Shown here: piece by piece, positions 23,698 to 55,296 of the stretch
Position numbering within the stretch: the first letter of the stretch is position 1
How the letters are laid out: the number at the start of each line of letters is the position of its first letter
From: Lachnospiraceae bacterium
Lineage (GTDB): Bacteria > Bacillota > Clostridia > Lachnospirales > Lachnospiraceae
Length of the DNA stretch: 64,000 nucleotides
Direction of reading: 5' to 3'
Assembly: GCA_017427685.1 (NCBI GenBank)
Contig: JAFRSH010000023.1
Coordinates: 21,213 to 85,212, forward strand
The notes under the pieces: model-generated
Seen by the model: the letters and a program-made list of their open reading frames with translations, nothing else
Databases searched by the model: none
Told to the model about the DNA's origin: nothing
Translations under genes and position numbers: made by a program

Positions 23698-25971
23698 TTA
23701 CCAAACCGAATTGTCTCTTGCACGAGGTCCGTACGCGTACTCTTCGTACTCGTGCTCGGGAAGCGGCTCCGAGAAAGCGAAGCCCTGGATCATATCACAA
23801 CCCATCTCACGGAGGAGGATAGCCTGCTGCTTGTTCTCAACACCCTCGGATACAACGTCGATCTTAAGACGCTTGGCCATCTCGATAACGGACTGGATAA
23901 CGTTCTGTCCACGGTCCGTCTTCTCGGCATTGAGGAGGAACTTACGGTCGATCTTAAGCTCGTCGACGGGCACGTTGTAGAGCGTGTTCATCGAGGTGCT
24001 GCCCGTTCCGAAGTTATCCATCGAAACGACGAATCCGTGATCCTTCATCTGCTCCATGATCTTGTTAAGGATGCTCATGTTATCCACAACCACTTTCTCC
24101 GACATCTCGAAGATGATGAGGTTCGGGGATACGCCGTACTTCTCGGTGATGGCGATAGCGTCGTTAACGAACTCGGGATTCAGAAGGTTCTGCTGCGAGA
24201 TGTTGAGCGACAGAGGCATGGGTCTGTAGCCCTTACCTGTCCAAACCTTGATACGGCGGCAAAGCTCTTCGAGCATGTACATGTCGAGCCTTGTTACGAA
24301 ACCGTTCTTCTCGAACGTCTCAATGAAACGTCCGGGATACATAAGACCCTTAACGGGATGCATCCATCTGATGAGTGCCTCGGCACCGGCCTGAAGACCT
24401 GTGTTGAGGTTGAACTTAGGCTGCAGGTATACGAGGAATTCCTTGTTCTCGAGAGCGTCGTACATGTCGCGCTCGATCTCTTTCTCGTCCACGATACGGG
24501 ACTGCATCTTCTCTGTGTAGAACTCTACCGCGCCTGCGCCCTTGCCCTTTGCTTCCATGTGAGCCATGTTCGCACGGGACATGAGTGTATCGAAATCGTG
24601 TGCGTCCTTTCCGCCGAAGGCAACGCCGTAACGGAATGTGAGCGCGTACTTGTCGGAACTTCCTTCACTCTTGTTGACAGCCTCGAGAGAGCTCTCGAGG
24701 AACTTGAGTCTTGCCACAAGCTCATCCCTGTTGTGGTAGGAAAGGAGAAGGTCGTACTCTTCACCGAAGTTGTGGCAGAAGTACTCGTCGCGCTTGACAT
24801 TACTCTTGAGGATCGAGGAGATATCCTTAAGGATCCTGGAGATCTCGTCCTCACCGAAGAAGTCGCGCAGGTACTCATACTTCGCGATACCCATAAGCAC
24901 GAATGCGTACTGTCCGGAGTTACTCTTTGTAAGGGTCTGGTTAACACCCTTACGGAAGTAGTTGATATTCATGGTTCCCGCAAACTCATCGTAGTAAGCG
25001 AGGTTGTACATCTTGTTACGTGACAGTGTCTCGAAGAATCCGTAGACACCGAGTCCGAGCGCACCCACAAGGGCGATGATGAACAGGATGATCGCTGTGG
25101 AACCGTTCGAGTCAACATCATCATTGCCGTAGAACTCGAAGAGCTTGTCCTCGTTCATGACCATCATGACGCCCCACTCACCGGTTCCGGAAACGCCCTG
25201 GTAAGCCACGTAGTAAGGTCCGTCGCCGAAGAGGTCGACCGTGAGGTTCTCGTCAACCCTCAGGAACAGGCCTCTGCCCTGACGGATGACCGACTCAAAC
25301 TGAGCACGGCTGTCGGAGTTCTTCTCGAACATATCGAGGACCGTTCTGAGCTTCGAAACGTCAGTTCCGGCCGTAACGCTTATAATACCACCGCTACGAT
25401 CCAGCAAAAGTATCACTTCGCGTCCACGGTAGTTGCTGATGGTGAGGTTACCCTCAACAACGTTGTCCGAAAGACGGGCACGGAGTGCTCCGACGATACC
25501 CGTAGCGTTCATAACGGGTACTGTTGCCATGTAGGCATCATCGTCTTCGCTCTTGAAGCCCGAACGTGTGATGGTGCTGTCACCGATCAATGCACGTGTG
25601 TAGTAAGGATCAAAGTTAACGTCGTAGGTCGAGCCGTCCGCACCGGTTGCTTTACCTGTGCCGTCAACGTAGGCGATGTCATCGTAGCCACCCTTTTCGA
25701 TGAGCTGCGCGAGCGCCGCCTTAAGGCTCTCCTTGTCTGCCCCCACATTGCCGGAGCTGATCGCACCGGCCGCACCCTCAAGGTTCTTTAAGACACCCTG
25801 GGTATACACCTGCATCTTGGAGGCGAGTGTCTGATCGAGGATCTCAAACTCTCTCCCCGCCTCCTCGACGCGCATAATGCTTTCGTTGCTGCTTAAGAAG
25901 GAATACCCTACGGCCACGCCCGCCAACATGAGCAAAGTCACCGCCGCAAGGATCAGGTATCTCCTTTTCAT
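23698..25971 (-). CDS. Membrane sensor with degenerate GGDEF and altered EAL domain, last gene of the long operon
   Basis: 757 aa. Membrane helices at about 5-25 and 291-315 flank a Cache-like extracytoplasmic domain (35-285). The GGDEF-like domain (about 325-485) has NFGEEYDLLL instead of GGDEF. In the EAL domain (495-740) AEALIRW, SLNISQQN, IIFEMSEK, LKIDRKF and VSEGVEN are kept, but the metal-binding Asp pair is Asp652-Asn653 in SMDNFGTGSTSM. The neighbouring EAL protein at 6119 keeps both Asp. Activity may be weak or lost, making it a possible c-di-GMP receptor. Its ATG overlaps the stop of the 4340-aa gene by 4 nt, so it is translationally coupled and probably controls or reads out that machine. 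Confidence 0.88.
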   Translation of the reverse strand: MKRRYLILAAVTLLMLAGVAVGYSFLSSNESIMRVEEAGREFEILDQTLASKMQVYTQGVLKNLEGAAGAISSGNVGADKESLKAALAQLIEKGGYDDIAYVDGTGKATGADGSTYDVNFDPYYTRALIGDSTITRSGFKSEDDDAYMATVPVMNATGIVGALRARLSDNVVEGNLTISNYRGREVILLLDRSGGIISVTAGTDVSKLRTVLDMFEKNSDSRAQFESVIRQGRGLFLRVDENLTVDLFGDGPYYVAYQGVSGTGEWGVMMVMNEDKLFEFYGNDDVDSNGSTAIILFIIALVGALGLGVYGFFETLSRNKMYNLAYYDEFAGTMNINYFRKGVNQTLTKSNSGQYAFVLMGIAKYEYLRDFFGEDEISRILKDISSILKSNVKRDEYFCHNFGEEYDLLLSYHNRDELVARLKFLESSLEAVNKSEGSSDKYALTFRYGVAFGGKDAHDFDTLMSRANMAHMEAKGKGAGAVEFYTEKMQSRIVDEKEIERDMYDALENKEFLVYLQPKFNLNTGLQAGAEALIRWMHPVKGLMYPGRFIETFEKNGFVTRLDMYMLEELCRRIKVWTGKGYRPMPLSLNISQQNLLNPEFVNDAIAITEKYGVSPNLIIFEMSEKVVVDNMSILNKIMEQMKDHGFVVSMDNFGTGSTSMNTLYNVPVDELKIDRKFLLNAEKTDRGQNVIQSVIEMAKRLKIDVVSEGVENKQQAILLREMGCDMIQGFAFSEPLPEHEYEEYAYGPRARDNSVW

Positions 25972-28900
25972 CTGCTTCCTTCCTTTCTCTTTTTATAGAT
26001 CAGGGCCCACGTAAGTCCTCCCGCAAGAACGACCGCTATAAGTACCGCGATGAATCCCCTGTAATCACGTGATGCCTTTGATTCTTCGGAACCGGATCTG
26101 AAGCTGTTGGCGGTGTTGATGAACTTGCCGCTTTCCGCAAGTCTTTCTTCGATAGACTTGACTGCTTCGTCCTGACCGGTCAGGAGCTCTTCCATCTCAA
26201 AGAGTTCGTACTCACCCGTCTCGGGATTGAATACAGGAACAAAGTTGAGGGTTGAAGGATCGATCGTGTTTCCGCTCTTAAGCGAATTCCTGATGATCTC
26301 CATGTCTCGTGCAAACGCTGATTCCTTCTCTGTGAGGCCGAACGTTGCATGCTCGATCACGGGCTCCTCTATGTAATCCGCAGGATTGAGAACGATATCC
26401 TTAAATGCTGCCGCAATGGCGTCTCTTACGGAGAGACCGTCCTCATCCGCGATCTTGGCCGCTGCTCCGAAGAGCTTGATCCTTGCTTCGCTCTCAGAAG
26501 TACCGAGTATCTCGGTGATCGTATCGAGTGAGAGGCTTCCGTCCTCGATGAGTGATGTTGCCTCTGACTCAACCGAAGCGAGAAGTGCAGGATCCACAGA
26601 TGTGTTCGAAGTCTGTGCCGCTTCGGATCCGAGAGTGCTGTTCGCACCGCCGGTCTGAGCTACGGAGACTTCTCCGTCCGTGTTGCCGTTTTCACCGTTT
26701 ATGGTGTTGGTTCCGTTAATGGTGTTGCCACCCACGTTGCCCGCAGGTGCCTCGCCGGTCTGAGGAACTTCGCCCTCTGTGCCGTCAGGCGTACCTGTCT
26801 CGGCAGGAATAAGTGCTCTGCCTGAAGGACCGTCGCCCACATCACCGCCACCGGCTCCGTTGTCTTCGGGCTGGGTACCAGTTGTAAGCTCTTCCTTCTC
26901 GCCTTCGCCGCCACCGGCCGAGCGATCTTCGGATCCGACTACGTCTTCTGTATTAGGCTCGGGCTGACCGTCAACCGATTCTTCTCCAACTTCCGTGCCT
27001 GTTCCGTTCACGGCATCTCTCTCGCCGATTCCGGAATCGATTCCGTCAGTTGCATTACCTGAGCCGTCAAGGTAAGGACCTTCGACAACATCGGTCGATG
27101 TGATCTCTTCACCGGATACAGGTGATCTGCGAACGATTCCGTCAACATTCACCGCACCGCTCCTCAAAGCATCGGAGAGTTCCATTGCATGAGCGAAGCT
27201 TACCGCACGACTTCCGCTCGATGCGTCTCCGCCACCCGATGCAACGCCTCTGCTTGCAGCCTGCTCGTAGAGGATCTCTCCCGTTACGAAGTTGAATGCG
27301 CAGAGTCCGCCGTTTGCGTAGCGAACGATACAGTAAGGTGCTCTGATCTCACGCGAGCTGCTCATCTCGTAGATTCCTTCGGTACTGATGCCTTCGGGAA
27401 CCTTGAACGCTTCATCAAGGAGAACCTGAAGCTTTCTGTCCGAACCGAGAGCTGCGAAATATGTGTTTTCAAGGTCGCTGTAGAGGATCACGCTGTCAGG
27501 TCTTACCTTCTGACTTGTGCGGATACTCTGCAGACTCTTTCCGTCTGTGTAGAAGAGGAAGCCGTCTCTTACAGTGCTCTCTCCCGTACTCAGATCGGTT
27601 GTTACCGAGTAGGTAGCGTATGTTTCGATCCTGTAGCCGCCGTACTCTCCTGTTGCCAGAGGCGCAGGTGTACGTTCATCCAAAGTCACGGTTCCGCGAC
27701 TTGTCGCGTCGGTCACAACACCGGTCTCAAGCTCGATGATGCTTCCGTCACGTTCAAGTGCCTTGCCGTCGTAGAGGTTGACGAACTCACCGTACCTTGT
27801 GGGCAGTGTGCTCGATCCCGATCCTCTCATGATTCCTTCGGCTGCAAGTATGTTGTACGAACCGCCGGCTGCCGATACGTAGTGAGCAAGCTCAGCTCCC
27901 GTGGAAGCAACCACCGTCTCGCCCTCTGCGCCGGTAACAACAACCGTCACATCGGATACGAAGTCGTACGTGAAGCTGATTGTCTTCCTGTCCACAACAC
28001 CCGAAACGATCTGTCCGCCGATCGATACCGTCCATGTGTATGCAGGATCGATACGACTGAAGTCTATCGAGATCGTGTCAACACCCGAGGAGTAAAGCGT
28101 AGCCTGAGGCATACCCGAAAGGTCGATCAGACCGCCACCCTGGCTGTTACCACCGCTGCCTGAACCGTACGATACACCGGGAAGAGCAAGCTTAACCCTA
28201 TCCCAATCATACAGATCCTTCATACCCCACGTAGCATTGTTCTGTGTTGAACCACCCATTGTGAGGGTCGGCATGAATCCGCTTGCCACATCTTCGTACT
28301 TGAAGCGATTCGTGGTGTAATTACTTGTTGTCATTCCGGTCTGCGTAGGCCATTCAAGGCTTGTATAAGCAGTACCTCCGGTCGCCTTAAGACGATCGTT
28401 ATCATATTTCTGTATCCTGTTTTTGACCTTACTGTCCACATGGGTGTTGACATAATCATCACCGCTCTGCGTGTAATAAGTCTCGCTTTGAGGAACATTC
28501 CTAAGCTTGATCCCTCGATCGGCATCCGAAGTGTCTACAGGATTCTTTTTAACCTGGAGCAATGCATCTTTATAGATTGCACCTGTCTTAACATAGTTGA
28601 CGCTACCCGCAAGTCTGTTCATGATCAGATCGCCCTTGGTCCTGTCAGAACTCTGGGTACCCTTTATGATCACATTACCGAGTGCAAGCCATCCTACATC
28701 GGACGAATCAGTGTAGAAGTCCTGTTCATACGCACCCATCAGTCCACCGACATTTGATTCACCAATAACCGTTGCGGCACTGACAATATACTTGAACTGA
28801 GGGTGTTCGGATACTGATGAAGATCCCATATAAACACGACCCGCAATACCTCCGACCTTGGATCCGGTCCTGCTGGTTGCATCATACCTCCTTGCTTCAA

Positions 28901-31900
28901 CAACAGTCTGACTGTCAACAAATATCGCCTGAGCATTGTAACGGAAGATCTCTCCGATCGCACCGCCGACATTATCACCGCCCACGATATCACAGTTCTT
29001 TACTACGAAGCTGTAGTTACCGCCGAACGATGTATAATTGCTGTCGTATGCCGAAACACGTCCTCCGATACCGCCGACATAAAGTGATCTAGGTGCGAAG
29101 ACGTATGTATCTTCAGCTACCAGCGTACGTGCGCCTGTAGCATATCCTACAACACCGCCGATATAGTCATATCTGGTAGTTACCTTAGGATTGTACATCG
29201 ACTCGTTGTAGTTAAACTTGATCTGACGATCCGTGTTATGAAGCCCCTGAATAGTTGTACCTGCAGCACTATACTCAGTTGTGCCGGAAAGCGCAACACC
29301 AAGTGCTTCACGAACCTTACCCTGACGACCGTACTGCCATTCCTGTGTACCGAAGGTATCACCCCCCCTGTACGATGTCATACCCCATGTAGCTTCATCC
29401 CAGAAAGACTTCCTCAAAGCCTTCAACTCAGCATCAGATTCATTATCAACCTTTCCGAGGATAGCATTCTTCCATTCGAAGTACTTTCCTTCACCCTTTT
29501 GCTGCTCATCATCATGACTCGTGATACTCGAGTTCTCTTTACCGACATATGACTTCTTCGTTACGGGATTTGTTCCATCCGTATCGTTGACATATATGCC
29601 CGTCGCACTGAATACACTGTCTATCTCGTTCTTATAATTGCTTCCGGGTCTGAAGAACATTGAAGGCCAAGTATCGTCCGTACGTTTCAGCGATTCGCCG
29701 CCAACCTTCTCATGAATACGCGAAACGTAGACATTCTTCGATCGGCAATCGATTGCTGCATATCGTCCGACAACACCACCGGTATACGATCCACCGAGGA
29801 CAACGCTGTCTTCGACATCCATCTTCCAAGCTCCACCGAGACCGACACCACCGCCGATTGATTCACCGGCGTATGACATCATGAGTCCGTTCTTTACCCA
29901 TGAACGAATAGATTCGTCCGTTGTTCCGTTGTCAAGAGGATACAAGCTTATGTTTCCGTCAACGCCGGTTCCCGTCGTTCTGCGGTAACCGTCACTGTTC
30001 CATCCTCCGATGTAAGCACGTCCTGCGATACCTCCAACATAACTGTGTCCCGATACAAAGACGTTTTCAATATGGAGTTTTCCTGCACGCTGGTATGTAC
30101 CTCTGTCTTTTGCGTTTCCAATGATACCGCCTATAAAGCTCGAAGGAACATTGCTCGAATTCAGTCTTGAGAACGAAACGATATCTTCCGCGTCTACATC
30201 CCAGATGTACGTACCACCAACCTGAGTACCGGCTACACCGCCCATACACTGTCCGGCTGCGTCAAGGTATACTCTGCGTGCCTTCAGTCCATCGATACCC
30301 GCGAACTTGCCCATGAACGCGACATAACCGCCACGGTTAGCGTATGTGCTGAGATAATAGATTCCTCTCTTAAACTGGATAACATTGATATCTTCAACTT
30401 CAATGTTCCTACTTATGTTGTAGATAAATCCTATAGGCGCCATATTCGCCGAAGCAAAGGCTGTAAGCGTAATATCCTTGAACTTCAGATTCTGAATCCT
30501 GCCGTTGACGATTCCGATAACAGCCGTCTTGTTTGACGCCTTACTCTTTGTAACACCGGCGTCATAAGTCTGAGCGATATTACACTTCTCAAAGGTAATT
30601 CCGGCAACTCTTCCTGTCGCTTGTTCGATGAACGCCGAGGTGTTACCGTCTGTGTCACATTCATAAAGACTGATACCCTTGATCTTTACCGCACGTGAAG
30701 TATCATATGTCCCGTCGTCATTAAACGGACTACCGTTTCCACCCTTGTTACCGATGAAATGATTTACGATGACGTTATGCTGCAATCCATTGATCTCATT
30801 ATCAAAATTAAGATCGGCTGTAATGTAAATATTGTAGCCTCTCGTTCCAAATCGGGAGGAACTCATAAGCGCGTTCCATTCCGCTTCGGAGCCGATACTG
30901 ATCCAACCTTCATTAAACCCAAGGTTAAGGTAAACATTCTTCTTCTTGTCTACCGTTTTTCCGGCAGTGTTTGCCTCGATCGCCGGCATAGTGGCAATAG
31001 TAGACTTCTTGTAGTTTACCGCTGTCAGGAAGTATTTATCCTTCGCCTGTACTACCTTTTGCTCTTGTCCTCCCAACGTAGCAGTGTTGTAAAGCCTAAG
31101 CGTACCAAAAATACTTGTTCCCACAACCTTACCGTTCTCGGTAATGGTTGTTACGGTGGGTGTAGCATTCCACTCCGCTCCGTCAAACTCTATACCCGAG
31201 CCGTCACTTTCGATCATGATCGAGTCATCATGAGAAAGTGTAAGGGCAAGCTGCGGATACTCGTTAAACGCATCGTTACACTCTGAAACAGTGAACTCCT
31301 TAACCTCCAGTTCGCTTGGCTGAAGTGAGAAATCCTGCTGTCCGGGAAGGAGCATCAGATTGCCGCTCTCATCTGTATAACTGTAGTAGAGCTTAGGCAT
31401 GATCCCGTTCGAGATATCAGTCTCGTTAATCTCAAACTTGTCCTTCCATGCAAGTCTCGGACGAAGAAGTGCATCTTCCCAACCGTAAGTTACCTTACCT
31501 GCATAGGAACCGGTTGTAGTAAGCGCATCGTACGAAATAGTATTAAAGTATGCCAAACGTGATGTCTCTGTCTCTTCCTTGTCATGCGATACAAACGGCT
31601 TTCCGTCCATATTGTACTGATCGTATACATACTGATGCTTTCCGAGACGAATACCCTTCTTGTCAGCGTTTGATGTGCCTGTGTAGAAACCTACAACAGG
31701 ACCGAGCGTTGCGGGATCAACCGACGAGCTCTTCGATACGATCCTTCCAAAGACAACTCCGTAGTTCCAATCCCAACCTGAAAGCTTCGAGGTATAACCT
31801 ACAACACCGCCCACGTTGTCAGCCATGGTAACGATATCAACATCAGTGTAGTAGTTCCTGATGAAGTATTCTTCTGTGTAGTAGTTACTCTTACTCGATG

Positions 31901-34900
31901 TCGATACATCGTTCATGCTCATGACAGATCCGATAAGTCCGCCGGCATTCGAATAGTTTGTATTGATCTGTCCTCTGACAGCATACACATTCTCAAGTTC
32001 AATACCGTTAACGGTGTAACCAACCATACCACCGATACCGTAGATATCGCCCGCCTGATCGGCATGGATCTCAAAGTTGTCAATATAGCAGTTATGGATG
32101 ATAAGACCGAGGTCGTTGTGTCCTACAAGACCTCCGACCGATGCTGCCGTCGAGTTATCAACCGGCATACCTGTCGAAAGGTAAACATCATGTACCGAGC
32201 AGTTTGTTATCTGGTTCTCAAAGTAATTTCTTGCGAGCAGTACGCCGCAGAACTGAGTGATGTTTTCAAAGCGCGCTCCGTAGACATGAACATTGTCAAG
32301 GCTTCCTCCGCTACGGAAGGTTGCTACAAGGCCCATGTACTTAGCTGTTGATTTGGTTGCTCCGAAGATACTCTGATCCATGGTATGGATGTTTCTTACC
32401 ACAAGATTTCTAATGGGTCCGGCTACTTTACCGAACACAAATCCGACATCGCCAACGTCGATATTGCTTATCTCATGATTATCACCGTCAAACTTACCGG
32501 TGAAACAATAATTGTTGTCGTCGGTGTTGTAATCTGCCTGAATAACTCCGCTGCTGTTTCTTCTGCTTACAGCGAATACCTTGGCATCGTAGCCTGCAAA
32601 GTCGATATCATTAGCAAGTTTATAGTTCTCATCAAGACCGTACGAGATTGAGGCAAAGTCTTCAACGCCCCTTATCGGCTTATAGAACGATGCATAAACC
32701 GCTACATACTCTCTCGCATCCAGTGTTTTGTCATAAACACTGGAGCTTCCTCTTGTCGAGAATCTGAAGGACCTAAGGTTATAAACATCGTAGTACTTCA
32801 AAGGATTGTAAAGCCTTACGTTAACGTAATAGAACTTTCCTTCCTCCCACTGCTGAAGGATCCTTGTTGAAAGGTTTTCAACTTCGATGCTGTTGACTAC
32901 GTAGCTGTTGGGGTTATAGAAAGTGACCGTAGCAAAAGCTTCCGCATCATTCTGTTCAGTAACTATCGCTGCAAGGGGAACGATCTCATTTACGGTCTGA
33001 GTGATAGCGGGCAGTGCTATCATAGGTTGCGCCGGCATACACTCATCCATACGGACATGAGGATAACATCCTCTGTCGATATTATCGTATTCCCACTGAC
33101 CGGGCTTTGTTATATCGTCGCTGTCAAAGAGGGACTCATACCAATGATAATCGTAAAGAAGCTCTTTACGTATCTCGTTTGAATCATATGCAAGTCCTCG
33201 GTAGTCGATACACTTACCGTAATCAAGTCCGCAACTGTAGTGGTATACATTTGACGAGTGTCCGTAAACGTTGTTACCTTCAACGAAGTTGAGGTTAGCC
33301 GGTGAAATACCATACTGAGCCACGTAGCGGTGTTGCCCGTCGTTCTCCTTATAGGTAAGCACCTTGGCCGCAGAGAAGCTGTTACGAACATAACCCTCAT
33401 TCAAGCCGCAGACAATAGCGCCCTTCTTGTAGATGGAGTTGGTATCGTTGTTACGAAGCTCCATATCAACAAGGCCGTAGACACTTTCTATTATACCGTT
33501 GACGTTCCTTCGAACGATACCGCCGGTATAGTAGCTACTTGTATAATAGTTTTTCGCTGTGGTTTCGTTTGAATGAACCTTCTTATACTCTTCCCACTCG
33601 GCGAGCTGCCTGATCTTAGCTCCTGTGGTGGTACAGGTATAACCGTTTCTGACAATACCGTAATTGGTGTAAACTGCAAGAGCGACACCATCGGCATACC
33701 AGAAGTGCATATCCTCCTGAAGGTCGATGCTGAAATTTTCAACAACGCCCGTCGGATAATTGTTTTCGCAAAGCATTCCTCTGATCCACTGGGATTCTCT
33801 GAAGTTGCTTACATTTCGTCCTTCATTCCATTGCCATACACCGGCATTGTCATAATAACCGAGCGGTTCGATCTTGTTCTTGTAAACAACCATGATACCG
33901 TTCAGGTGTCCGCGGTTATCATAAACAACTCCACGAAGGTTCTTGTAATTATTTAAACCGTCACCCTTCTGGAAAACAAGATTTCTGATCTCACCGTAAG
34001 GTCCGAGTGTATGTATAAGGTATTCTGCCGTCTTGTGAACAAGCGTATGTCCGTCAAAGTCGATAACACCGTTAAACAGCTTGGTGTTGAAGATGTTGGC
34101 ACGGTCGATCACAAGATCGTTAGTAACGATATAACTTTCCGAAGGATGACAGTACGCATCATACAGATCGTTTTCATCGTTGATAGCGTGTATGATACGG
34201 TCGGATGTAAATACTACCGTTCCGACACGGACACTGTAGTTGTTGATCTTAACCCAGAGCTCAAGTCTGTAGTACTTACCGGTACTAACTCTGACACCGA
34301 AGTTGGTATCGATCTGGTTAGATCCTCCGACAAAGGTCTTTTGACCGAGCGGCGTCCCGTGACCATCAGGATCATAAGGATCGTATTCATACATATCAAG
34401 CAGACAATTGTCACTTGCATGCTCTCTGTCCTCGCTCTGAAGGAGTTCTCTCCACTCATGCACACGTTCACTGATAAGGTGATATCCGCTCGAACCTGCA
34501 GACTCCTCACCTTCTTTTTCGTATACTCTCACGTAATACTTGGAAACAGAACCCGAACCAAGCTGTCCGAAGTCATCCTTAAGAATAGCATTAATGTTAG
34601 CTGTGTATGCCTTGTCTCCGAACTTGTGGAACGAAAGACCCGAGAACATGTAAACACCGCTGTTGTCAGTACTCTTCCCACCAAGGGGATTATCAAGGTT
34701 CAAAGGCGTAGCCTTAAGGTAAACCGTTACATCATTTCCTGTAAGATAGGTGTTGAGTCTGATGTAGTTACTGGTCCAGTAATTTCTTGAAAGTGCCGCA
34801 TTGGTACTTGCGTCATGTGCATCGACCCTGACAAAAGCATTGGGATCATCATAATCCGAAAGCGGCTGTGTGCATGCTTCATCTGCGAAGAGCTGATAAT

Positions 34901-41922: not shown

Positions 41923-43308
<1,386 letters not shown>

Positions 43309-45443: not shown

Positions 45444-45506
45444 AAAAAGTATTACCCCCATTTATAATCTGTTACAATTTACTGTTACCAATCTGTCGGT
45501 CGATAC

Positions 45507-46277
45507 TCAACCGAGTTCCGACCTGTGAATGCCGAAGTCATAGAGCTGTCTTCCTGCGATTATCTGGATGCCTTCACAAAGACCCTGATCGTAGACAGTC
45601 TTTACGAGAGGTGAGATATCCGAGAAGTCATCATCCTTTTCGGCGGTACGAACAACGACCGTGGGATCGAGCCTGTCCTTACGACATGCGAGCCAGTAGA
45701 CAAAGCGGTCCGTGGTATCGAACTCACCCTTCTCCTGCACGTATGCCTCAAGAAGCTTCTTGCCGTCCTCATCAAGAGAATCATTGAGAGCCTCGTACTG
45801 CTCAGCGCTCTCAAATGCGAGCAGCCTGTAGCAGAGATCTCCTGAAAGAGTGTTGCAGAGGTCGTCGATCACTTCATACTCATGCTTAGTGTCGGGCACT
45901 TCGTACGAAGCAAGGAAATCCTTCACAAGTCCTCGCCTGTCGAAAGAAAAATGCTCACGCATGTCGCGGTAGTCTCTCTTAAGATCGGGGCTGCAGTAAC
46001 CTGTCGTCCTTGTGAAGAACATCTGACCCGTGGGTACGGTACGAAGTTCTTCGCTTTCCTCAAGCTCCCTGAGTCTCTTCTCAAGGCTGTCGACACGGTT
46101 CTGCACCGCTTCGAGTCTCGCCTGTTTCTCTTCGATCAGGTCGTCATAGATCATGATCCTGTCGCTGACGTTTGATTTTAAGTTTTTCTCGGCTTCTCTC
46201 GAGTACATCGACATGATCATAAAAACCACGGCGATAGCGATCACAAGAAGCGCGATAACAAGAACAATCTCGCTCAT
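45507..46277 (-). CDS. b-delta fusion-like peripheral stalk protein
   Basis: 256 aa from the ATG at 46275-46277 with GAAGGG ten bases upstream (a TTG six codons earlier is possible). One membrane helix at the N-terminus (SEIVLVIALLVIAIAVVFMI) is followed by a strongly charged coiled coil (about 25-80), as in subunit b. The C-terminal 50 residues (PTVVVRTAEKDDDF and LCEGIQIIAGRQLYDFG) resemble the end of delta, where a GGVVVRIGDKVIDGS-like strand pair occurs. Read as a b-delta fusion, similar in principle to that of mycobacteria. It sits between c and alpha, the normal place of b and delta. Confidence 0.72.
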   Translation of the reverse strand: MSEIVLVIALLVIAIAVVFMIMSMYSREAEKNLKSNVSDRIMIYDDLIEEKQARLEAVQNRVDSLEKRLRELEESEELRTVPTGQMFFTRTTGYCSPDLKRDYRDMREHFSFDRRGLVKDFLASYEVPDTKHEYEVIDDLCNTLSGDLCYRLLAFESAEQYEALNDSLDEDGKKLLEAYVQEKGEFDTTDRFVYWLACRKDRLDPTVVVRTAEKDDDFSDISPLVKTVYDQGLCEGIQIIAGRQLYDFGIHRSELG

Positions 46278-46338
46278 TATCCCTAATCCCTTCAATGCTT
46301 ATCAACAAGATAATTCGGTTCACAAACGGCACAACCAC

Positions 46339-46372: not shown

Positions 46373-46636
<264 letters not shown>

Positions 46637-46675: not shown

Positions 46676-48511
46676 TCAATACGAATAAAGCTTGTTGATC
46701 AGTAGTTCGCTCTTGAGATCGTATGATACCGAACCGTACTTAACATCAACGATCCTTACCAAAAGATCCTCGTTGTTATTTTCGTAGTCGAATACGATAG
46801 TTTGTCCAAGCTGAGTTGCCGACTGCATGTCAACTTTCCACTTTGCAGTCCCTGCCGTTTCAGGTGCAGGTGAAGCAGTTCCCTGAAGAGTAAGAGGTGT
46901 GTTCGTACCGCTCTTTACAACTTCCACATATGCTTCGTCGATCAAAGGATCTAGTTCGACCGTAAATCTGATCTGTATTCCACCTCCCGTTACCACCGGT
47001 CCTGTGGGAGTAATGCTCTTAAGTGTCAGGTTGTTATAGAGCTGAGGAGTACGTACTACTATGTACTGATCCCATTCAACTTCTGTCGATTCCTGAAGCT
47101 TCTTGTAATCAAGGAAACCGAGCGCAACGATATAAGTTTGACCGGGCGCTATCTTTTCAACAAGTCCGCTGGACTTGCTAATACCACCGTCGTAAGTAAT
47201 CGCGTTTACCAAAGCACGGTCAACCGGGAATACCGACCTATTATAGTTTGTCTCATCGGGCTTTCCGTCTTTATCGGCAGGAATGACCGAGATGTAGATC
47301 TGTCCGTATGAAAGCTCGGGATCGTCAACACCGTAATCGATCGAGATCCTGTTGGCAAAAGCCGTTGCTCCACGAAGTTTCAGGTACTTATAAAGTGTCT
47401 TTTCTCCCTGGACCATTCCGCCGTTACCACCCTGGCCGCCATCACCGCCGTCGCCGCCTTGGCCACCGGCTCCACCCGAGCCACCGGTTCCACCGGTTCC
47501 GCCTGTACCACCGGTTCCACCGGTTCCGCCGTTACCGCCCTGGCCACCCTGGCCGCCCTGGCCGCCGTTTCCGCCGGCTCCGCCTGATCCACCGGATCCA
47601 CCGTTACCGCCGTTACCACCGGTTCCGCCGATTCCGCCCTGGCCGCCAACGCCGCCCATGCCGCCGTCTCCGCCGTCACCACCGGTTCCGCCGATTCCGC
47701 CGGCTCCACCTGTTCCGCCGTTTCCGCCGGCTCCTCCGTTACCACCGGCTCCTCCGGCTCCGCCTGATCCGCCGCGAACGGTAATATTATAGATCGGTGC
47801 TCTTTCTTCTTCGGTTTTTTCGGAGTTCTCGAGTTCTCTGTAATCCGACTCGTTGTACATACTGGATGTACCCATGATGCTGGCCGTATTAACACGTCTC
47901 TCGCCGAGTGTCAGGATTTCTTTGGCAATATCAAACTCGTACTCTCCGATAAGTATCTTCGAAGGAGTTGTGGTCTTAACACTGACATCATCATTGAACA
48001 GAAGCGCATTTCCTGCTGTGTCAAGGTAGACAAAAAGGAACTTGGTCGTATCAATGATCTTGTCTTCCGTCGCAATGGAAGGTCCTACCAGCAGATACTT
48101 TCTGTCGCCGAGCTTGTAGAAGCCGGGAGTCGAAAAATCAGTGATATCGGTAACTCCCTCGAGAGTCTTAACACCCTCATCCTTGGTTACTTCGTAACCT
48201 CCTCCGAACGTTCTTACCGATCCGGAATCTCCCTCGTAAGTAACCACCGACTCACCCAGATTATAGCTGTTCCCTTCGGGAGTGGTAAGGTAGTACTTAC
48301 CGTCCCACTTTTTCTCGATAACGGATTCCTCCGTCACCTGGATCGCGTTATTCTGGGCATCGTAGACCACGGTTGACGAATTGATCACATAAGGATCGTT
48401 CTTCTTGTTCATCGCGATTGTCATCATCACGACAACCAACGCTCCGATGGCTACGATAGCCACCGCAAAAGCGTAGAAGGAGAACATGCTTTTCTTGTCG
48501 AGCTTTCTCAT
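46676..48511 (-). CDS. Surface protein with Gly-Gly-X stalk, 611 aa
   Basis: Membrane helix 11-33; shared membrane-proximal domain about 40-210 (FVYLDTAGNALLFNDD, ILIGEYEFDIAKEIL); charged linker; then 40 uninterrupted Gly-Gly-X triplets (residues 247-366); then about 245 residues that look like two Fn3-type beta domains. Gly-Gly-X runs of this length form polyglycine-II helix bundles in known proteins such as some phage adhesins. No C-terminal anchor. It starts 21 nt after the 2207-aa gene. ATG has AAGGAAG upstream. Confidence 0.9.
   Translation of the reverse strand: MRKLDKKSMFSFYAFAVAIVAIGALVVVMMTIAMNKKNDPYVINSSTVVYDAQNNAIQVTEESVIEKKWDGKYYLTTPEGNSYNLGESVVTYEGDSGSVRTFGGGYEVTKDEGVKTLEGVTDITDFSTPGFYKLGDRKYLLVGPSIATEDKIIDTTKFLFVYLDTAGNALLFNDDVSVKTTTPSKILIGEYEFDIAKEILTLGERRVNTASIMGTSSMYNESDYRELENSEKTEEERAPIYNITVRGGSGGAGGAGGNGGAGGNGGTGGAGGIGGTGGDGGDGGMGGVGGQGGIGGTGGNGGNGGSGGSGGAGGNGGQGGQGGQGGNGGTGGTGGTGGTGGTGGSGGAGGQGGDGGDGGQGGNGGMVQGEKTLYKYLKLRGATAFANRISIDYGVDDPELSYGQIYISVIPADKDGKPDETNYNRSVFPVDRALVNAITYDGGISKSSGLVEKIAPGQTYIVALGFLDYKKLQESTEVEWDQYIVVRTPQLYNNLTLKSITPTGPVVTGGGIQIRFTVELDPLIDEAYVEVVKSGTNTPLTLQGTASPAPETAGTAKWKVDMQSATQLGQTIVFDYENNNEDLLVRIVDVKYGSVSYDLKSELLINKLYSY
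47414..47773 (-). repeat. Gly-Gly-X coding repeat (40 triplets)
   Basis: Encodes residues 247-366 of the 611-aa protein. X is mostly Ala, Asn, Thr, Gln, Asp or Ser, with single Val, Ile and Met. The codons vary, so this is a protein-level repeat rather than recent DNA slippage. Confidence 0.95.
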
Positions 48512-48532
48512 GATAATCTCTTCCTTTCCCCG

Positions 48533-51500
48533 TCAGGCAATTGTGTATGTAACCATTGCATCATCATACCGGATAAATTGCCCGGCAATCTCAACTCTAA
48601 TACGTATCGCGATCGTGTAGGTTCCCGATTCGTTGAAGATGCCTTCGGCTAGTTTTGTGAATCGGTATGTCTTATCACCGGATTGTGATGTTATAACGTC
48701 ACACATATGAGTGTCTTCGGCGAACGGATTAATGAACTCATCAAATCGTCTTGTAACATTGGACGGAGAAGTCATATCAATACGCATCGACACTCCAAGA
48801 GTTTCACTTGACATATTGATAAAGTCGATATACGCATCACCGGCCACAGCACCTCTGATTACTTCGATATAACCGTGCGAGAAACCGTCCGCAGGTGTCG
48901 ATTTTTCGGATGACTCCTTAACCGTGTACAATCCAGCAAGAACATTCGCGCTGACCGTTGCCGAATTATTGAAGTTTCCTTTGTAATAGTCTATTTCGTG
49001 GAGGTCAGCACGCGTTTTACTCTTCTCATCTTCAACGGCGAAGACCTTAAGCACTACTTCCTGTTCGTCTTGCAATCCATCGACAACAATCTGTTGAGCA
49101 TATCTGGTGTTCAACACACCATTATAATAGTAATCTCCCTCAATGGTGCAAGCTACTAAACTCGTTCCTTCACGCTTAAAGGCACGGATCATGTAATTGT
49201 CATTTACAATTACACCGTCGGCATCGACGATACTTACTCGGAAGGTAACCTTCTCATGTCCCGCATATGCTCTGATGTTATAGAATGGCGAAGCCAAAGC
49301 GTGAAGACTACCGAAACTTGCGTAAACTCCCTTACTTGCATCTCCTCTTTCTATACCGATCGAGTGTCCGGCAAGCCATGTGTTGTAGTTATTTGTATAA
49401 GTAGTAGTGTGACTCGAATAATCACCGTCGTCGTACGACGAATCCTCAGTAACACTGAAGGACGAGAGATCCTGCGTTCTAATCGGAATGATCCTGAGTT
49501 TGTAGTTGTTTACATATCCAACCGCTTGTGTACTGTCAAAATGCATATACACATTTTTACCGCCTTCTCTTCCGACAAGTGTTTCATTCGGAGAAACGTC
49601 AAGTGAAATATTTCGGCTCGAAGTCTCATTCAAATACTGCATAATCTCACGATGATCAAGAACGAGATCTGTGCCTTTATAAAGCGCATAGATATACTGC
49701 TCTCCGGGTCGCAGGCTCGGGCTTCCCTGTGAAAGGCTGAACGAGACATTTATCTTCTTGTTGTTGTATCCGGTCGAACTATAGGTAACTACAGGAACAT
49801 GTACCTGAGTATCGATGTTGACAGTAGTGGTCGTACTGAATGTATAGTAAATCGAAGATGCTGTATTACCGGGATACAAAGCATCTCTTAAGTAAACTCG
49901 ATGAGATATTGCATTACCCTCTTGATCATACTCAAGATCTGCATCAAACTCGGTGCTGTCCGCATAATATACAAGCTGTATAGCATACGAGGTATTCGGT
50001 TCAAGACCCGTAATTGCCTTGCTGTACGTTCCGTCACCCTCCGCGCCCGGATTCGCACCGTTCTGATCAAGATCTACAGCTATTCTCCTTATCTTGTGAG
50101 GATTGTACCCGTCTGTATTATCGATAACCGGGGTATACCTTCCCTGGTCGGCATAATAAAGTAACATGTATACTCTGCCGTAAGGGCTGGCACTGTTTGC
50201 ACGGCCGTACATGGACTGAGCACCCTGAACACCGGTAATAGTGAATTCAACAGTAGCCTGGTCCTGTCCGGGTGATATACTATAGCCTGTCTTTGTGTGA
50301 AGATTTACCATAGGGATAACATCACCGATAGTGAAGGTCTCGGTAGTCGTATTCGAAACCTCGCCTTTTGCTGTTGTGTCAGTCTTCACAAGGCATACAG
50401 TATAGTTCAACTGGCTCTTGGTTATTCTTGCATCATACATACCGCCAAGTCTTGCTCTTGAGTTTGCCGATGTCTCATACTGGAATCCTCCACCGGTCCA
50501 GCTGCTGAAAACAACGCCAACCATACCGGGTTTGTTCGAAAGCGTAGCGGCAATATTCGCATTCTGTGCTCCGGCGCCATCGATCCTGTTCATTTTGAAG
50601 AGCGATCCTTCAGCAACGATATCGTTTGTATTTAAGTTCCTATTCTCAAACTCTGAACCGCCTGCCTCGTTCATAGGAAGGATGTATTGTCCTTCGTTGT
50701 TCTCTCCGGCTTCACGAATAGATACAAATCTCTCTGTGGTATACGGAGCAATTGTCTGTAAGAATCCCTCGTGTCCTGTATCGTAATAGATCGTCAGCGA
50801 TACGCTTATTTCTCCGCTTGGAACCCTGATGGAAGCCAGATCGGAGTACTGAACATAAGCTACCATGTTAGAGCCGGATACAGACGAAATAGAAAGTCTG
50901 ACATCAGTACTTCCTCTGCTCGTGGTAAATCTACCGACAACTGCCGCAACGCTCTTTGCCTGAGCACTTGTTCCGAACTTGAGTTTAAACTGAGCTCTCG
51001 AAGCGCCGTCGTCTCTCTCAATAGAGAAAGTGGTATCAGGTGCATCGTTTACTCCGGTAAAGAATCTCGTAAATGCAGTTACAGTCTTGCCTCTGTTGTA
51101 GGGAGCGATATAACGGTTTTCAACAAACCTTACAGAAACCTGACTTCTCTTTGCAAGACCGGCCACACGGACCTGCGCATCACAATTACGCTGAACAAGG
51201 CTGTCAGCGACCGATCCCCATTCGGTTCCCACTCCTGTTCCGCTTGTTACTGCACGCGTCTTGATCGAATTACCCGCTGTCTTTTCCATGCTGACATTTG
51301 CAAAGATGATGTCTGCATCCTTCGACTGAATGTAATAACCGTAAGTAAGGTAATCACTACCGCTGTCAGCAGGGTAGAAGTAGTACGTGGGCTCCTCATA
51401 AGGAGCAGCATAGGACGTTGTTGATTTAAGGATGCAAGCCTTATCCTCGCCAAGTACTTCGGGGTACATATTATTAGCTGCCTGAGGCATTTCGCCCGCA

Positions 51501-54500
51501 TCTACATGAAGTCGGAATGTGAATTCGTAATCTCTTCCTCTGAAGAAATTGCCATTCTCATAGGTAGCATTAAAGTCAGCATCTACAGCAAATCCGGCTC
51601 CGTGGAATAACCTTGTTCGATTTTTAAGGTTGTCTATACATGTGCTCTTATCTCCCGTAAAATCACTGAAAAGGAACACAGCTCTCGGGTTATTGCCGAT
51701 AAGGTTACCGCCGTCCTTCAGACTCAAAGAAAGCTTCGCCATATAGTGATTATCGGTATAAGGGTAGAAATATGTTTTACCCGTTTCGTCAGGCTGTCCC
51801 TGGTTCGAAACTTCAGTAACAGGCAGACCATCTGTCGCGTGTGCGGACTTAAGGTGATCGCTTATGGGTTTCATTGTAGTTGCGTAATACTCAGCATCGT
51901 AAGCATAAAATTCGATACGATCAAAGAGCTTGAGGTTTGCACCGAGCCCATTCGGTTCAACACAATAACCAAATACCGTTTCGGGTCTGTAACCATCAAG
52001 GGCTGATGCTATCGGTGTTCCGGGAATGCTCGTGTTAACGTAATCTGTATAGTTGGCCGTTGTAATAGGTGTAACAATAAGAGATAACGATCTTGTATCA
52101 GGATATGTCTTTCCGATCTCAGTTCTGTTATCAGGGTCAGTTTGTTTTACAGGTATGGTATTCTTGTGAGAGGTATAATCGTAAGCCTCAGTGATCTTAA
52201 CTCTGTAATATCCTCCAAATGATGTAATGTTTGGATTTCCGGGGAAATCATCAAGCGAAAGGTATTTGTCATCAGTATCAGGAACTGCGATATTCTTGCC
52301 GCCTAACGTATCTGACTTAAGAGGGATATCTGCCTGTGCCACCTTCGTCGTTCCGTCAGCATCCCAGAGTTCTACGTGAGCCTTGCCCTGTACCTTGCCC
52401 TCATCCTCATCCCATGTTTTCGAGCCGTAAGACTGATCTACAGAGTACTGGGAATCAGCCTGCTGTGTTAACGGTAACTGGTCATCTAACTTCAAAGAGA
52501 ATGTAAAGTAAATAGGACTAACGCCATTATTACCTGACTGAGTGTTTCCGGATGTAGTTGTATACTTGGGAGTCTTCAGTGTAACCGTACCGATAGCTTT
52601 CCTCTTATATACGTTGTCTCCGGTCAGGTCTACCATACCGAATGCCGTGAACCTGTAGATGGTCGACGATTTCAGATTTCTGATGACTGAAGTGATAGGA
52701 ACAACTTTAACTCCGTTACTGTCTGTAGTGATGTTGTCTTTAAATCTATCATAGCCATAAGTTTCCACACCACTGTCATAAAGATCAGCCACATACTCAA
52801 TGGTGATAGGGCTGTTCTCCTGGAGTTTTGCTGTTCCGGGGATATGTACTTTAAACTGAGCCTCCTGTCCGCCGCCCGCAACGCCGAGTGCGTTGGGCTT
52901 GAGAGAAGTCTCTTTATTGTCAAGTGTAAGCCAGGTATACTGCGAGACACCGTTCATCGAGAAAGTCTCAGGGAAAACGATCTCAATCTCAAGATTCTTG
53001 TGGTTATCGTATACTTCGGCTATGGCATGAACAGTGTATGTTTCCTGCGCATTAAGACCGCCACCGTCAAAATCAAGGTAGCAGTGAACAACATCATTAT
53101 TGGGTGCATGGACACTCTTTACAAGTTCGTTCCTGTCGTTGTAAACATCATACCTAAAGCCCGTGATCGCATGATCAAGGTCAGTTACGGTGTTAACCGA
53201 GAAGTCAAAGCTCGAATTGAGGATGTTCTGGGTCACCATAACATTGTCGATAGTAGGGATCCTCTTAAGAGTCTTTACAGGGATCAACTTATAACGATCG
53301 GGGATCTGTGTTGATCTGGTCGAATTAAACTTCGAATCCGAAATTGCATTAACAGTAAAGTAGTAAAGCGTATCGGTTGAAAGTCCCGACCCATCCTTGT
53401 CGATCTTCAAAAAGTCAGATGTTGTACGATCCTTATTTACAAAAGTGGTCCTGCCAAGATTCTGTGAGATAGCATAAGAATCACCTTCCTGTATTATGGT
53501 GCCGGCCGCGTCGGTAAGAACCCAGTCAATAGAGAAAGTACGAGTAACATTAGTAGCATTTTCATCAGCATCGGCATCGCGGTTGATAAGTTCCATCGTG
53601 ATGCTTGTAGTCTCAACGCCGTACACATTCACACTCAGAGGGAAGTCGTCGGTAATGATCGTACGATCCTCGAATGTAGTTTCAACCTTCTTGTCGAGAT
53701 GGTCATACTTACCGACAATTCTGAGTCTGTAGGCAGTTGCGGGATTAAGTCCGTCGATAGTGAGTTCCTGTGTACCTCCGCCGGCATTCATGTCCTGAAG
53801 ACTGATCCTCTTTGCAATTTTACCGGTAGACATCTCAATAAGATCGGCATAAAGATCAACAACACCGATCGTTGCATTTACATCGCCGATACTGGGAACA
53901 ATCTTGAAGTAGCCGCTTATCTGCGAATAATCTATTGAAAGACTCTCCCATCTAACCACGGGAACATCTTTAAGCACTTCATCAGGGCTGTTGACCGTAG
54001 GGTTATCACCGTCTTTACCGTCATCACCACGATTACCCTGAAGTCCGGTAGCGCCTGCAGAACCGGCTGCTCCTGCACCACCTGCGGAGCCGGCACTTCC
54101 GGCTGCACCCTGGCTACCCTGAGGGCCCGCCGAACCGGCTGCGCCCTGAGCTCCGTCAACACCTTCAGCACCTTCTACACCGTTAACGCCGCTACGACCG
54201 GAGGTACCTGCCTGACCGGCATCACCGTCGTCACCGTCATAGCCCATAAGACCGGTACGTCCGCTCTCTCCTCCGAGTCCATCTGCTCCGGCATCACCGT
54301 CGGCACCGTTGGAGCCGTTGATTCCGTTAGGGCCGTCCTCGCCGTTCTTGCCATCGATAACCTCAAAGTTGAACTCAGGTATGACGATCTTGAGTTCAGG
54401 AACGTCGGCAGGGAGAACACTGACTACCTGATCGGAGTCGGTGGTCATCTGGCCGAGTGTCATGGCGATATTGTCATTATCAAGGACAACCTGTGTTGCA

Positions 54501-55156
54501 AGGTTGATCTTGATGCCTGTGTCTGTTGAAACGTAGGTGTTCTTGGATGCGTCGCGGAGCATGGTGTCACCGTTGATGATGGATACCATGCCGCCTTCCT
54601 GGTAGATGAGCTCGACGTAATCGTCGAATGAGTAGGATTCACCGTCTGTAAACGAGACTGTTATAACGTCGGAAACCATCATGTAACGGTTGTTGCCGAC
54701 CTTCCAGAGATAATTAGTGAGATCAACGGATGAGCTGTCGCTCGTATCGATACTGTAAGAAGAACCGCTGCGGTTAACGGAAGTGTCGGCGTTAAGTCCG
54801 TAGTAGTTTACTGCAGAAGAACCAACCTCGTCGAGGTTGACAAGAACGCTCTTAGACAGTGATGCTGAAGCGCCGCTGTCGTAGTGAACGAAGGAGTTGG
54901 CATCAGCCGTGACGGTGTTGCCTTCGGTATCACGGAACTGGATACTTCCCTCATAAGAACGTTTAAAAGCCGTGCCTTCCGTAAAATGATACGTTTTGGC
55001 CGGCTGTTCGGTGTTGGATTCGTCGTAGACGATGATGTAGCCGTCTTCGGCGAAGACCTCCTTCCCCGACTGAGTACTGTAGATAGCATAAACCATCGCC
55101 CCTGCTGCCAAAACAAGAATGACGCCCAGCACTATCATGACAAGTTTGTTCTTCAT
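48533..55156 (-). CDS. Surface protein with collagen-like stalk, 2207 aa, first gene of the long operon
   Basis: Membrane helix 5-26; shared membrane-proximal domain about 35-240 (YVELIYQEGGMVSIING, TDTGIKINLATQVVL); 39 uninterrupted Gly-X-Y triplets (269-385) rich in Asp and Ala; then about 1800 residues of immunoglobulin/Fn3-like beta domains, with recurring patterns such as GLNPATAYRLRIVGKYD and GLEPNTSYAIQLVYYAD. No LPxTG or C-terminal helix. The collagen-like part should form a homotrimeric triple helix about 33 nm long. ATG has AAGGGG upstream. The protein is predicted to stand off the cell on a rigid rod. Confidence 0.92.
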   Translation of the reverse strand: MKNKLVMIVLGVILVLAAGAMVYAIYSTQSGKEVFAEDGYIIVYDESNTEQPAKTYHFTEGTAFKRSYEGSIQFRDTEGNTVTADANSFVHYDSGASASLSKSVLVNLDEVGSSAVNYYGLNADTSVNRSGSSYSIDTSDSSSVDLTNYLWKVGNNRYMMVSDVITVSFTDGESYSFDDYVELIYQEGGMVSIINGDTMLRDASKNTYVSTDTGIKINLATQVVLDNDNIAMTLGQMTTDSDQVVSVLPADVPELKIVIPEFNFEVIDGKNGEDGPNGINGSNGADGDAGADGLGGESGRTGLMGYDGDDGDAGQAGTSGRSGVNGVEGAEGVDGAQGAAGSAGPQGSQGAAGSAGSAGGAGAAGSAGATGLQGNRGDDGKDGDNPTVNSPDEVLKDVPVVRWESLSIDYSQISGYFKIVPSIGDVNATIGVVDLYADLIEMSTGKIAKRISLQDMNAGGGTQELTIDGLNPATAYRLRIVGKYDHLDKKVETTFEDRTIITDDFPLSVNVYGVETTSITMELINRDADADENATNVTRTFSIDWVLTDAAGTIIQEGDSYAISQNLGRTTFVNKDRTTSDFLKIDKDGSGLSTDTLYYFTVNAISDSKFNSTRSTQIPDRYKLIPVKTLKRIPTIDNVMVTQNILNSSFDFSVNTVTDLDHAITGFRYDVYNDRNELVKSVHAPNNDVVHCYLDFDGGGLNAQETYTVHAIAEVYDNHKNLEIEIVFPETFSMNGVSQYTWLTLDNKETSLKPNALGVAGGGQEAQFKVHIPGTAKLQENSPITIEYVADLYDSGVETYGYDRFKDNITTDSNGVKVVPITSVIRNLKSSTIYRFTAFGMVDLTGDNVYKRKAIGTVTLKTPKYTTTSGNTQSGNNGVSPIYFTFSLKLDDQLPLTQQADSQYSVDQSYGSKTWDEDEGKVQGKAHVELWDADGTTKVAQADIPLKSDTLGGKNIAVPDTDDKYLSLDDFPGNPNITSFGGYYRVKITEAYDYTSHKNTIPVKQTDPDNRTEIGKTYPDTRSLSLIVTPITTANYTDYVNTSIPGTPIASALDGYRPETVFGYCVEPNGLGANLKLFDRIEFYAYDAEYYATTMKPISDHLKSAHATDGLPVTEVSNQGQPDETGKTYFYPYTDNHYMAKLSLSLKDGGNLIGNNPRAVFLFSDFTGDKSTCIDNLKNRTRLFHGAGFAVDADFNATYENGNFFRGRDYEFTFRLHVDAGEMPQAANNMYPEVLGEDKACILKSTTSYAAPYEEPTYYFYPADSGSDYLTYGYYIQSKDADIIFANVSMEKTAGNSIKTRAVTSGTGVGTEWGSVADSLVQRNCDAQVRVAGLAKRSQVSVRFVENRYIAPYNRGKTVTAFTRFFTGVNDAPDTTFSIERDDGASRAQFKLKFGTSAQAKSVAAVVGRFTTSRGSTDVRLSISSVSGSNMVAYVQYSDLASIRVPSGEISVSLTIYYDTGHEGFLQTIAPYTTERFVSIREAGENNEGQYILPMNEAGGSEFENRNLNTNDIVAEGSLFKMNRIDGAGAQNANIAATLSNKPGMVGVVFSSWTGGGFQYETSANSRARLGGMYDARITKSQLNYTVCLVKTDTTAKGEVSNTTTETFTIGDVIPMVNLHTKTGYSISPGQDQATVEFTITGVQGAQSMYGRANSASPYGRVYMLLYYADQGRYTPVIDNTDGYNPHKIRRIAVDLDQNGANPGAEGDGTYSKAITGLEPNTSYAIQLVYYADSTEFDADLEYDQEGNAISHRVYLRDALYPGNTASSIYYTFSTTTTVNIDTQVHVPVVTYSSTGYNNKKINVSFSLSQGSPSLRPGEQYIYALYKGTDLVLDHREIMQYLNETSSRNISLDVSPNETLVGREGGKNVYMHFDSTQAVGYVNNYKLRIIPIRTQDLSSFSVTEDSSYDDGDYSSHTTTYTNNYNTWLAGHSIGIERGDASKGVYASFGSLHALASPFYNIRAYAGHEKVTFRVSIVDADGVIVNDNYMIRAFKREGTSLVACTIEGDYYYNGVLNTRYAQQIVVDGLQDEQEVVLKVFAVEDEKSKTRADLHEIDYYKGNFNNSATVSANVLAGLYTVKESSEKSTPADGFSHGYIEVIRGAVAGDAYIDFINMSSETLGVSMRIDMTSPSNVTRRFDEFINPFAEDTHMCDVITSQSGDKTYRFTKLAEGIFNESGTYTIAIRIRVEIAGQFIRYDDAMVTYTIA
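54002..54352 (-). repeat. Collagen-like Gly-X-Y coding repeat (39 triplets)
   Basis: Encodes residues 269-385 of the 2207-aa protein with no break in the Gly register. Proline is rare, and the first half is rich in Asp and Asn, the second in Ala and Ser, as in many bacterial collagens. Confidence 0.95.
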
Positions 55157-55267
55157 GTTTGTTCCCCTTGATCTCTCTGAAAATCTGAATTTCTTAACTA
55201 TTATTGGGAATTAAGCAGCATTACGATAAACGTATTAAATTCAGGCTGCCCAGATACCCCAATCCTC

Positions 55268-55296
55268 ATTTTAACTCTTTTTATTTGTTTTGTAAA
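55268..55296 (-). promoter_or_regulatory. Promoter of the 12-gene operon
   Basis: Minus strand TTTACA (55291-55296), 17-nt spacer, TAAAAT (55268-55273); one mismatch to consensus in each box. Predicted start near 55261, giving a leader of about 105 nt that contains an 8-bp inverted repeat CTGAATTT/AAATTCAG (arms at 55185-55192 and 55237-55244). The remaining AT-rich part of this 390-base gap (55300-55498) shows no gene or clear motif; it may hold upstream control sites. Confidence 0.65.

Follow-up and report, generated by a model that had tools for sequence, protein, structure and literature searches.

Rotary ATPases are known for coupling adenosine triphosphate (ATP) to ion flow. In mycoplasmas, F1-like ATPases of types 2 and 3 have been tied to gliding or to the MIB-MIP system (PMC11864180, PMC12994834); the accessible parts of these papers describe clusters with no c subunit and no membrane-anchored stalk, and GliD, a type 2 protein, is believed to have arisen by fusion of b and delta (PMC11864180). 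Here we describe a 64,000-nucleotide stretch of a Lachnospiraceae bacterium genome (GenBank assembly GCA_017427685.1, contig JAFRSH010000023.1, positions 21,213 to 85,212 of the forward strand; the window) in which a twelve-gene operon combines the subunits of an F-type ATPase with very large surface proteins. We regard it as rather probable that this operon encodes an F-type rotary ATPase without ion coupling, in which ATP hydrolysis rotates surface rods instead of moving ions. An F1 engine acting on surface proteins has a precedent, but the combination of an ion-free c subunit, a stalk and matched repeats had none in the literature searched, which left out most subscription papers and contained no description of such a clostridial system. 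The engine, c subunit and stalk appear to have been kept while the ion path was lost, with surface proteins on the output side, and such a system would show how an ATP synthase can turn into a mechanical machine. Because the c subunit is kept, it would offer a clean test system for the exit of torque from F-type motors, and it may represent a previously unknown means by which bacteria with a cell wall act on their environment.

The 12 open reading frames (ORFs) of the operon lie on the minus strand from 55156 down to 23698. In transcription order they encode surface proteins of 2207 and 611 residues, the c subunit (81 residues), b-delta (262, or 256 if counted from the first ATG), alpha (446), gamma (261), beta (456), an epsilon-like subunit (92), proteins of 402, 474 and 4340 residues and an EAL/GGDEF protein of 757 residues. 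Intergenic gaps are short or overlapping; from the coordinates, alpha and gamma are separated by 12 bases and beta and epsilon by 8, and the 402/474 and 4340/EAL pairs overlap by 4 bases each. All of these ORFs are present and tightly packed where a first-pass annotation of the window had placed twelve minus-strand genes as one unit, and its assignment of F-type c, b-delta, alpha, gamma, beta and epsilon also stands, through Pfam for c, alpha, gamma and beta, through predicted structure for b-delta, and through position, length and alignment for epsilon. Pfam further assigns the EAL/GGDEF protein and collagen repeats in the 2207-residue protein, and the remaining products match no family above cut-off in Pfam or NCBIfam. 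The unit shares with the F1Fo ATP synthase its alpha, beta, gamma, c and b-delta components and the order c-b-delta-alpha-gamma-beta-epsilon, but differs in having no subunit a, no c carboxylate, a shortened alpha and epsilon, and attached surface genes.

Loss of the ion path is apparent in the c subunit (46373..46618, minus strand, as are all features of the operon). It retains the glycines of helix 1 and the RNPE loop, which in known F-ATPases is the grip for gamma and epsilon, while the ion-binding carboxylate of helix 2 is replaced by threonine; the housekeeping c subunit has glutamate at this site. No carboxylate was present at the site in any of the 120 best of the 1443 c homologues found, a sample that favours close relatives (threonine in 96, alanine in 12, valine in 8, and lysine, serine, methionine and isoleucine in one each). 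Subunit a (PF00119) was on no cluster-bearing contig in the 17 cluster genomes searched (12 in one search and nine in another, with four common to both), and blastp with the housekeeping subunit a gave no match in the fetched cluster loci. PF00119 occurs elsewhere in ten of these genomes and is absent from seven that are 85-99% complete (G377, G390, G701, G767, G1278, G1325 and G1358), including G701, G767 and G1358 at 96-99% completeness. In G701 (99% complete) and G767 (98%), which are alike at the cluster locus, the PF00006 matches over cut-off are the cluster alpha and beta plus one 98-bit match each, which is probably Rho. Since neither PF00119 nor any other F- or V-type alpha or beta over the PF00006 cut-off was found in them apart from this probable Rho, their gene content points to the possibility of bacteria that lack an ATP synthase but have the cluster motor.

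The window genome itself (2.8 Mb, 98.6% complete) has one subunit a, on a contig other than that of the cluster. It belongs to a housekeeping operon with c, b, delta, alpha, gamma, beta and epsilon, the members other than a being named by order and sequence. The first-pass annotation had proposed a check for such a separate operon, and had allowed that the cluster might instead be the only ATP synthase of the organism with its subunit a encoded elsewhere; the separate operon, together with the seven cluster genomes lacking PF00119, speaks against the latter. In G000, a 3985-base contig (C7, L010) carries another c-b-delta-alpha fragment, from an ordinary F-type ATPase and with a broken alpha frame, which may be an assembly contaminant.

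The b-delta protein (45507..46277, with an alternative ORF start at 46295) has a transmembrane (TM) segment, a long helix and a predicted delta/OSCP-like head. When its predicted structure was searched with Foldseek, the top 39 rows were all F-type ATP synthases, with the mycobacterial structures 7nkq and 7njk among the matches. As the model matches the delta/OSCP subunit of F-ATPases, a stator stalk is likely to be present, and both b and delta of the F1Fo peripheral stalk are thus represented as judged from predicted structure. The mycobacterial fused b-delta similarly joins a long stalk helix and a delta head in one chain, but it is only ~20% identical and the window unit lacks the accompanying subunit a. 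By sequence, b-delta gave only weak matches to unrelated coiled coils among solved structures, and a match to PspC (19 bits against a cut-off of 104) was disregarded. Neither b-delta nor epsilon has a Pfam match, and the latter (41636..41914) is termed epsilon-like from its conserved position, its length and its alignment to the housekeeping epsilon, of which only the N-terminal part remains.

The catalytic machinery is intact, in agreement with the first-pass annotation. Compared with its housekeeping paralogue, beta (41923..43293) retains the Walker A (GGAGVGKT), GERxREG (GVGERSREG) and Walker B (DVLLFVDN) regions, and alpha (44121..45461) retains the arginine finger (SVSRLGG). Walker A, the GER motif with the catalytic glutamate and the arginine finger are intact in all 15 of the loci checked, out of 20 read, the check having covered the loci collected before the last five. 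The C-terminus of alpha is ~65 residues shorter than that of the housekeeping alpha, while its N-terminal helix, the binding place of the stalk in known enzymes, aligns without gaps. Gamma (43323..44108) is recognized by Pfam.

Alpha and beta fall below the cut-off of every NCBIfam model among the matches listed (25 of 35 for each), those of the mycoplasma F1-like families included. Alpha scores 359.9 bits against atpA (cut-off 484.45), and beta falls narrowly short against atpD (448 against 462.85). The scores are also below cut-off for the N-ATPase (alternate F1F0) models TIGR03324 and TIGR03305 (329.4 against 750.5 and 405.1 against 752), the type 2 (G1) models MMOB1660 and MMOB1670 (358.5 against 600 for alpha and 378.6 against 850 for beta) and the type 3 models MSC_0619 and MSC_0618 (283.4 against 520 and 398 against 570). 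Beta reaches 221.8 bits against a cut-off of 587.45 for FliI, the best-scoring FliI model among those of FliI/SctN; a separate FliI is encoded in the window genome in the neighbourhood of flagellar genes, an identification made by eye from gene order and sequence. Because alpha scores almost alike against atpA and MMOB1660, kinship of the cluster alpha with mycoplasma type 2 is possible at the sequence level.

The second line of evidence comes from the two proteins encoded upstream of c. The 2207-residue protein (48533..55156) has an N-terminal TM segment and an N-terminal domain followed directly by a collagen-like repeat of 39 GXX triplets (residues 269-385) and a long ectodomain. The 611-residue protein (46676..48511) has an N-terminal TM segment and a beta-rich N-terminal domain, again followed directly by a glycine repeat, here of 40 GGX triplets (residues 247-366), and by two predicted fibronectin-III-like domains (residues 375-611), which, and not the N-terminal domain, fill its VIA-align rows. 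The long ectodomain contains six fibronectin-III-like motifs compared with 0.5 in shuffled sequences, an excess not raised in every relative. The two repeats vary together across loci, with GXX/GGX triplet counts of 39/40 in G000, G002, G015 and G018, 40/41 in G011, 68/69 in G014, 31/35 in G042, 23/25 in G356, 31/31 in G390 and 17/19 in G1016 and G1110, while L013, G701, G1278, G1325 and G1358 have neither. Either both repeats or neither were therefore found in 16 of 16 readable loci (18 loci have both genes, two of them unreadable at the repeat). The Pearson correlation of repeat lengths is 0.998 over 13 loci, which include two with neither repeat and are not independent, and 0.997 over the six repeat-bearing lineages, for which two of 720 possible pairings, the true one included, are as close as that observed. 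On the simplest reading, this match in length suggests one composite rod in which the two repeats run alongside each other. With a rise of 0.286 nm per residue, 39 triplets would give a rod of ~33 nm, which is on the order of Gram-positive cell wall thickness; across lineages the predicted rod lengths are ~15 to 58 nm. The (GXX)n repeat on a surface protein is shared with the collagen-like adhesins Scl1, Scl2 and Lcl, but the window protein is below their cut-offs (72.8 bits against 325 for Scl2) and differs in its N-terminal membrane anchor, in the absence of a C-terminal LPXTG and in its poly-GGX partner. The missing c carboxylate and the length-matched repeats both go beyond the first-pass annotation and strengthen its case.

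Downstream of epsilon are three further surface proteins. The 402-residue protein (40441..41649) joins a four-TM part to a part with a fifth TM segment and an ectodomain, and these two parts are separate genes in distant relatives. The 474-residue protein (39020..40444) has an N-terminal half resembling the 4340-residue protein and a C-terminal half resembling the ectodomain of the 402-residue protein, and occurs in close relatives only. The 4340-residue protein (25968..38990) carries 12 GGxxG-type repeats, whose sequence is suggestive of a beta-helix. Hydropathy agrees with the single-pass and five-pass membrane proteins with large ectodomains described in the first-pass annotation, giving one N-terminal TM segment in each of the 2207-, 611- and 474-residue proteins, five in the 402-residue protein (six overlapping segments under another setting) and one at each end of the 4340-residue protein. 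The EAL/GGDEF protein (23698..25971) has two TM segments, a GGDEF motif that appears degenerate by eye and a weak dCache match (30.1 bits against a cut-off of 45).

To evaluate how constant this association is, we read 20 loci from 17 genomes and one further record (G000, G018, G015, G002, G011 with three, G014, G042, G377, G356, G390, G701, G767, G1016, G1110, G1278, G1358, G1325 and L013). Relatives of the 2207- and 611-residue proteins stand upstream of c in all 18 readable loci (G377 and one G011 copy being unreadable there, and the first giant being split in G1358). The four-TM and TM-plus-ectodomain proteins, whether as one gene or two, directly follow epsilon in all 18 loci readable at that place (G390 and G1325 being unreadable), with an unmatched 181-residue ORF in the four-TM place in G356. 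The second giant is present downstream in 15 of 17 readable loci (one G011 copy, G390 and G1325 being unreadable); in four of them the stretch read ends within it, and in G1278 it is fragmented. As far as contigs reach, the surface genes thus accompany the ATPase as the first-pass annotation had expected, rather than being mostly absent from homologous clusters, and the shared order of core and surface genes spans the same genus to other families. The closing gene is less constant; the annotation had included a protein related to cyclic dimeric guanosine monophosphate (c-di-GMP), and this is present in the window, but an EAL/GGDEF gene follows the giant in only five of 11 readable loci, all in the family of the window, and is best treated as accessory. 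The 474-residue gene is likewise found only in that family.

In an alpha tree the cluster sequences form a single clade (33 of 33 tips, from 19 loci and 14 protein matches; support 0.997) separate from 84 other F-type alphas. The tree contains no mycoplasma F1-like sequences because the operon read in the Ureaplasma record L060 is a housekeeping one. The protein matches include Lachnospiraceae, Mobilitalea, Herbinix and Oscillospiraceae. The cluster is rare, occurring in 7 of 116 relatives, in 6 of 397 genomes sampled from the family, in 3 of 391 from the class and in 3 of 398 from the phylum (overlapping sets that include the own genome each time, with at most four first-look candidates per genome scored in the last three), and in 2 of 145, 2 of 150 and 4 of 112 genomes in overlapping sets around three other centres. 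Among the 116 relatives, the scores of members start at 565 bits, whereas the next match reaches 312. A contig scan with a generic pattern returned 80 loci, of which one is a clear clade member (L013, 58%) and the others, at 35-44%, are mostly housekeeping-like alphas. Second alphas of 590-675 residues and ~40% identity in relatives were considered as a wider family and dropped, because the five loci read are ordinary operons with subunit a and an N-terminally long alpha. In these five (G065, G031, G067, G006 and G025; L137, L139, L141, L142 and L144), alpha has its long N-terminal extension where delta would be expected, and a delta gene of its own was not found. G011 carries three copies of the cluster (contigs C196, C140 and C65; L134-L136), with alphas 96-98% like that of the window and diverged surface proteins.

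From this arrangement we infer rotation, torque transfer, export, rod contact and use, and place and topology suggest the four-TM protein as a substitute for subunit a. In the proposed mechanism, gamma-epsilon would turn a c-ring that has neither an ion site nor a subunit a to push against. The four-TM protein and its partners (the 402-, 474- and 4340-residue proteins) would hold the stalk in place of a and form a fixed frame, and the 611- and 2207-residue proteins, whose genes adjoin c, would ride on the c-ring. Their glycine-triplet repeats would be wound into one rod, which would carry torque across the cell wall to the fibronectin-III-like and larger outer domains. The use is the least certain step and might be the moving, gripping or releasing of insoluble substrate or neighbouring cells; the machine may move fibres, as the first-pass annotation supposed. 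An exception to the shared gene set is that the second giant is unconfirmed in G701 and G767, where no more than the truncated beginning of an unmatched ORF is visible. More tentatively, the system might add to the flagellum and the ATP synthase a further kind of bacterial rotary motor, in which an ion-freed c-ring turns a collagen/polyglycine shaft and giant adhesive arms spin relative to a frame anchored in the membrane; the two upstream proteins would then contribute, with their length-matched repeats, the two halves of a shaft through the Gram-positive wall.

The motor could alternatively pull or flex surface proteins rather than spin a shaft. Such a conversion of rotary steps into linear pulling of a leg protein has been proposed for gliding in Mycoplasma mobile. 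F1-like ATPases of types 2 and 3 do work with large surface proteins according to the accessible parts of the papers (PMC11864180, PMC12994834), and the type 2 motor is thus like the window unit in linking an F1-derived engine to giant surface proteins. The presumed b-delta fusion origin of GliD (PMC11864180) also recalls the one-chain b-delta found here. The second giant, which in all 10 complete orthologues is flanked by TM segments at its two termini, would be handle-like. As far as it is described there, the type 2 motor is a dimeric twin with an N-terminal extension of beta and a bound PGK (PMC11864180), whereas the window beta has 456 residues against 784 in the matched G1 beta chain, aligns from G1 residue 317 and lacks the joining extension. 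The matched repeats resemble a shaft. The c subunit and TM-bearing b-delta, neither of which is listed in the accessible descriptions of the mycoplasma clusters, are retained here, which favours true ring rotation, and we consider pulling rather unlikely.

It is improbable, in our view, that the ATPase handles surface-bound matter through capture, release and reset of a binder, without movement of cell or fibre. The analogy is type 3, an F1-like X0 system that clusters with surface proteins, is thought to act across the membrane and is a precedent through the antibody-cleaving MIB-MIP (PMC12994834, as far as accessible). Fast-changing ectodomains around a near-frozen engine within a genus would also fit a binder under selection, as G000 and G018 share 99% identity in alpha and beta (core subunits, 91-99%) and 48-67% in the surface proteins, a contrast that counts in favour of the rod-turning reading as well; it is weaker between G1016 and G1110 (alpha 83%, giants 63-67%, b-delta 52%). 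Against this, Pfam and NCBIfam searches of the surface proteins at E 0.01 detected no enzyme or antibody-binding domain, nor did either give a MIB- or MIP-like match in the window unit. The type 3 system further differs, in the accessible description, by a 12-TM membrane protein and by seven proteins without c and with no b homologue (PMC12994834); the highest TM count in the window unit is five.

It is very improbable that the unit is a variant of an ion-coupled ATP synthase or pump whose subunit a is missing or unrecognized. The F1 part, c and the predicted b-delta structure are F-type, but this reading conflicts with the carboxylate lost from every one of the best c homologues, with the distribution of subunit a, with a 402-residue protein that matches no Pfam or NCBIfam family and with the separate synthase of the window genome. 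A decaying duplicate of the atp operon adjoining adhesin genes by chance would fit the patchy occurrence but is hardly credible given the single alpha clade, the intact motifs, the near-identical core of G000 and G018, and the same gene order across families.

Downstream, the neighbours of the operon are a class I tRNA synthetase gene and a glycogen phosphorylase gene. Upstream (55547-56193, minus strand) are two small ORFs of 100 and 106 residues that resemble, by eye, a HigA/HigB-type toxin-antitoxin pair; a relative of the 100-residue ORF (89% identity) is also upstream of one G011 cluster copy. No c-di-GMP riboswitch was detected upstream of the operon by Rfam. Between the glycogen phosphorylase gene, just past its end, and a 465-residue ORF that it precedes, a TwoAYGGAY RNA, a cis-regulatory motif, is found at 17635-17798 on the minus strand (66 bits against a gathering score of 43).

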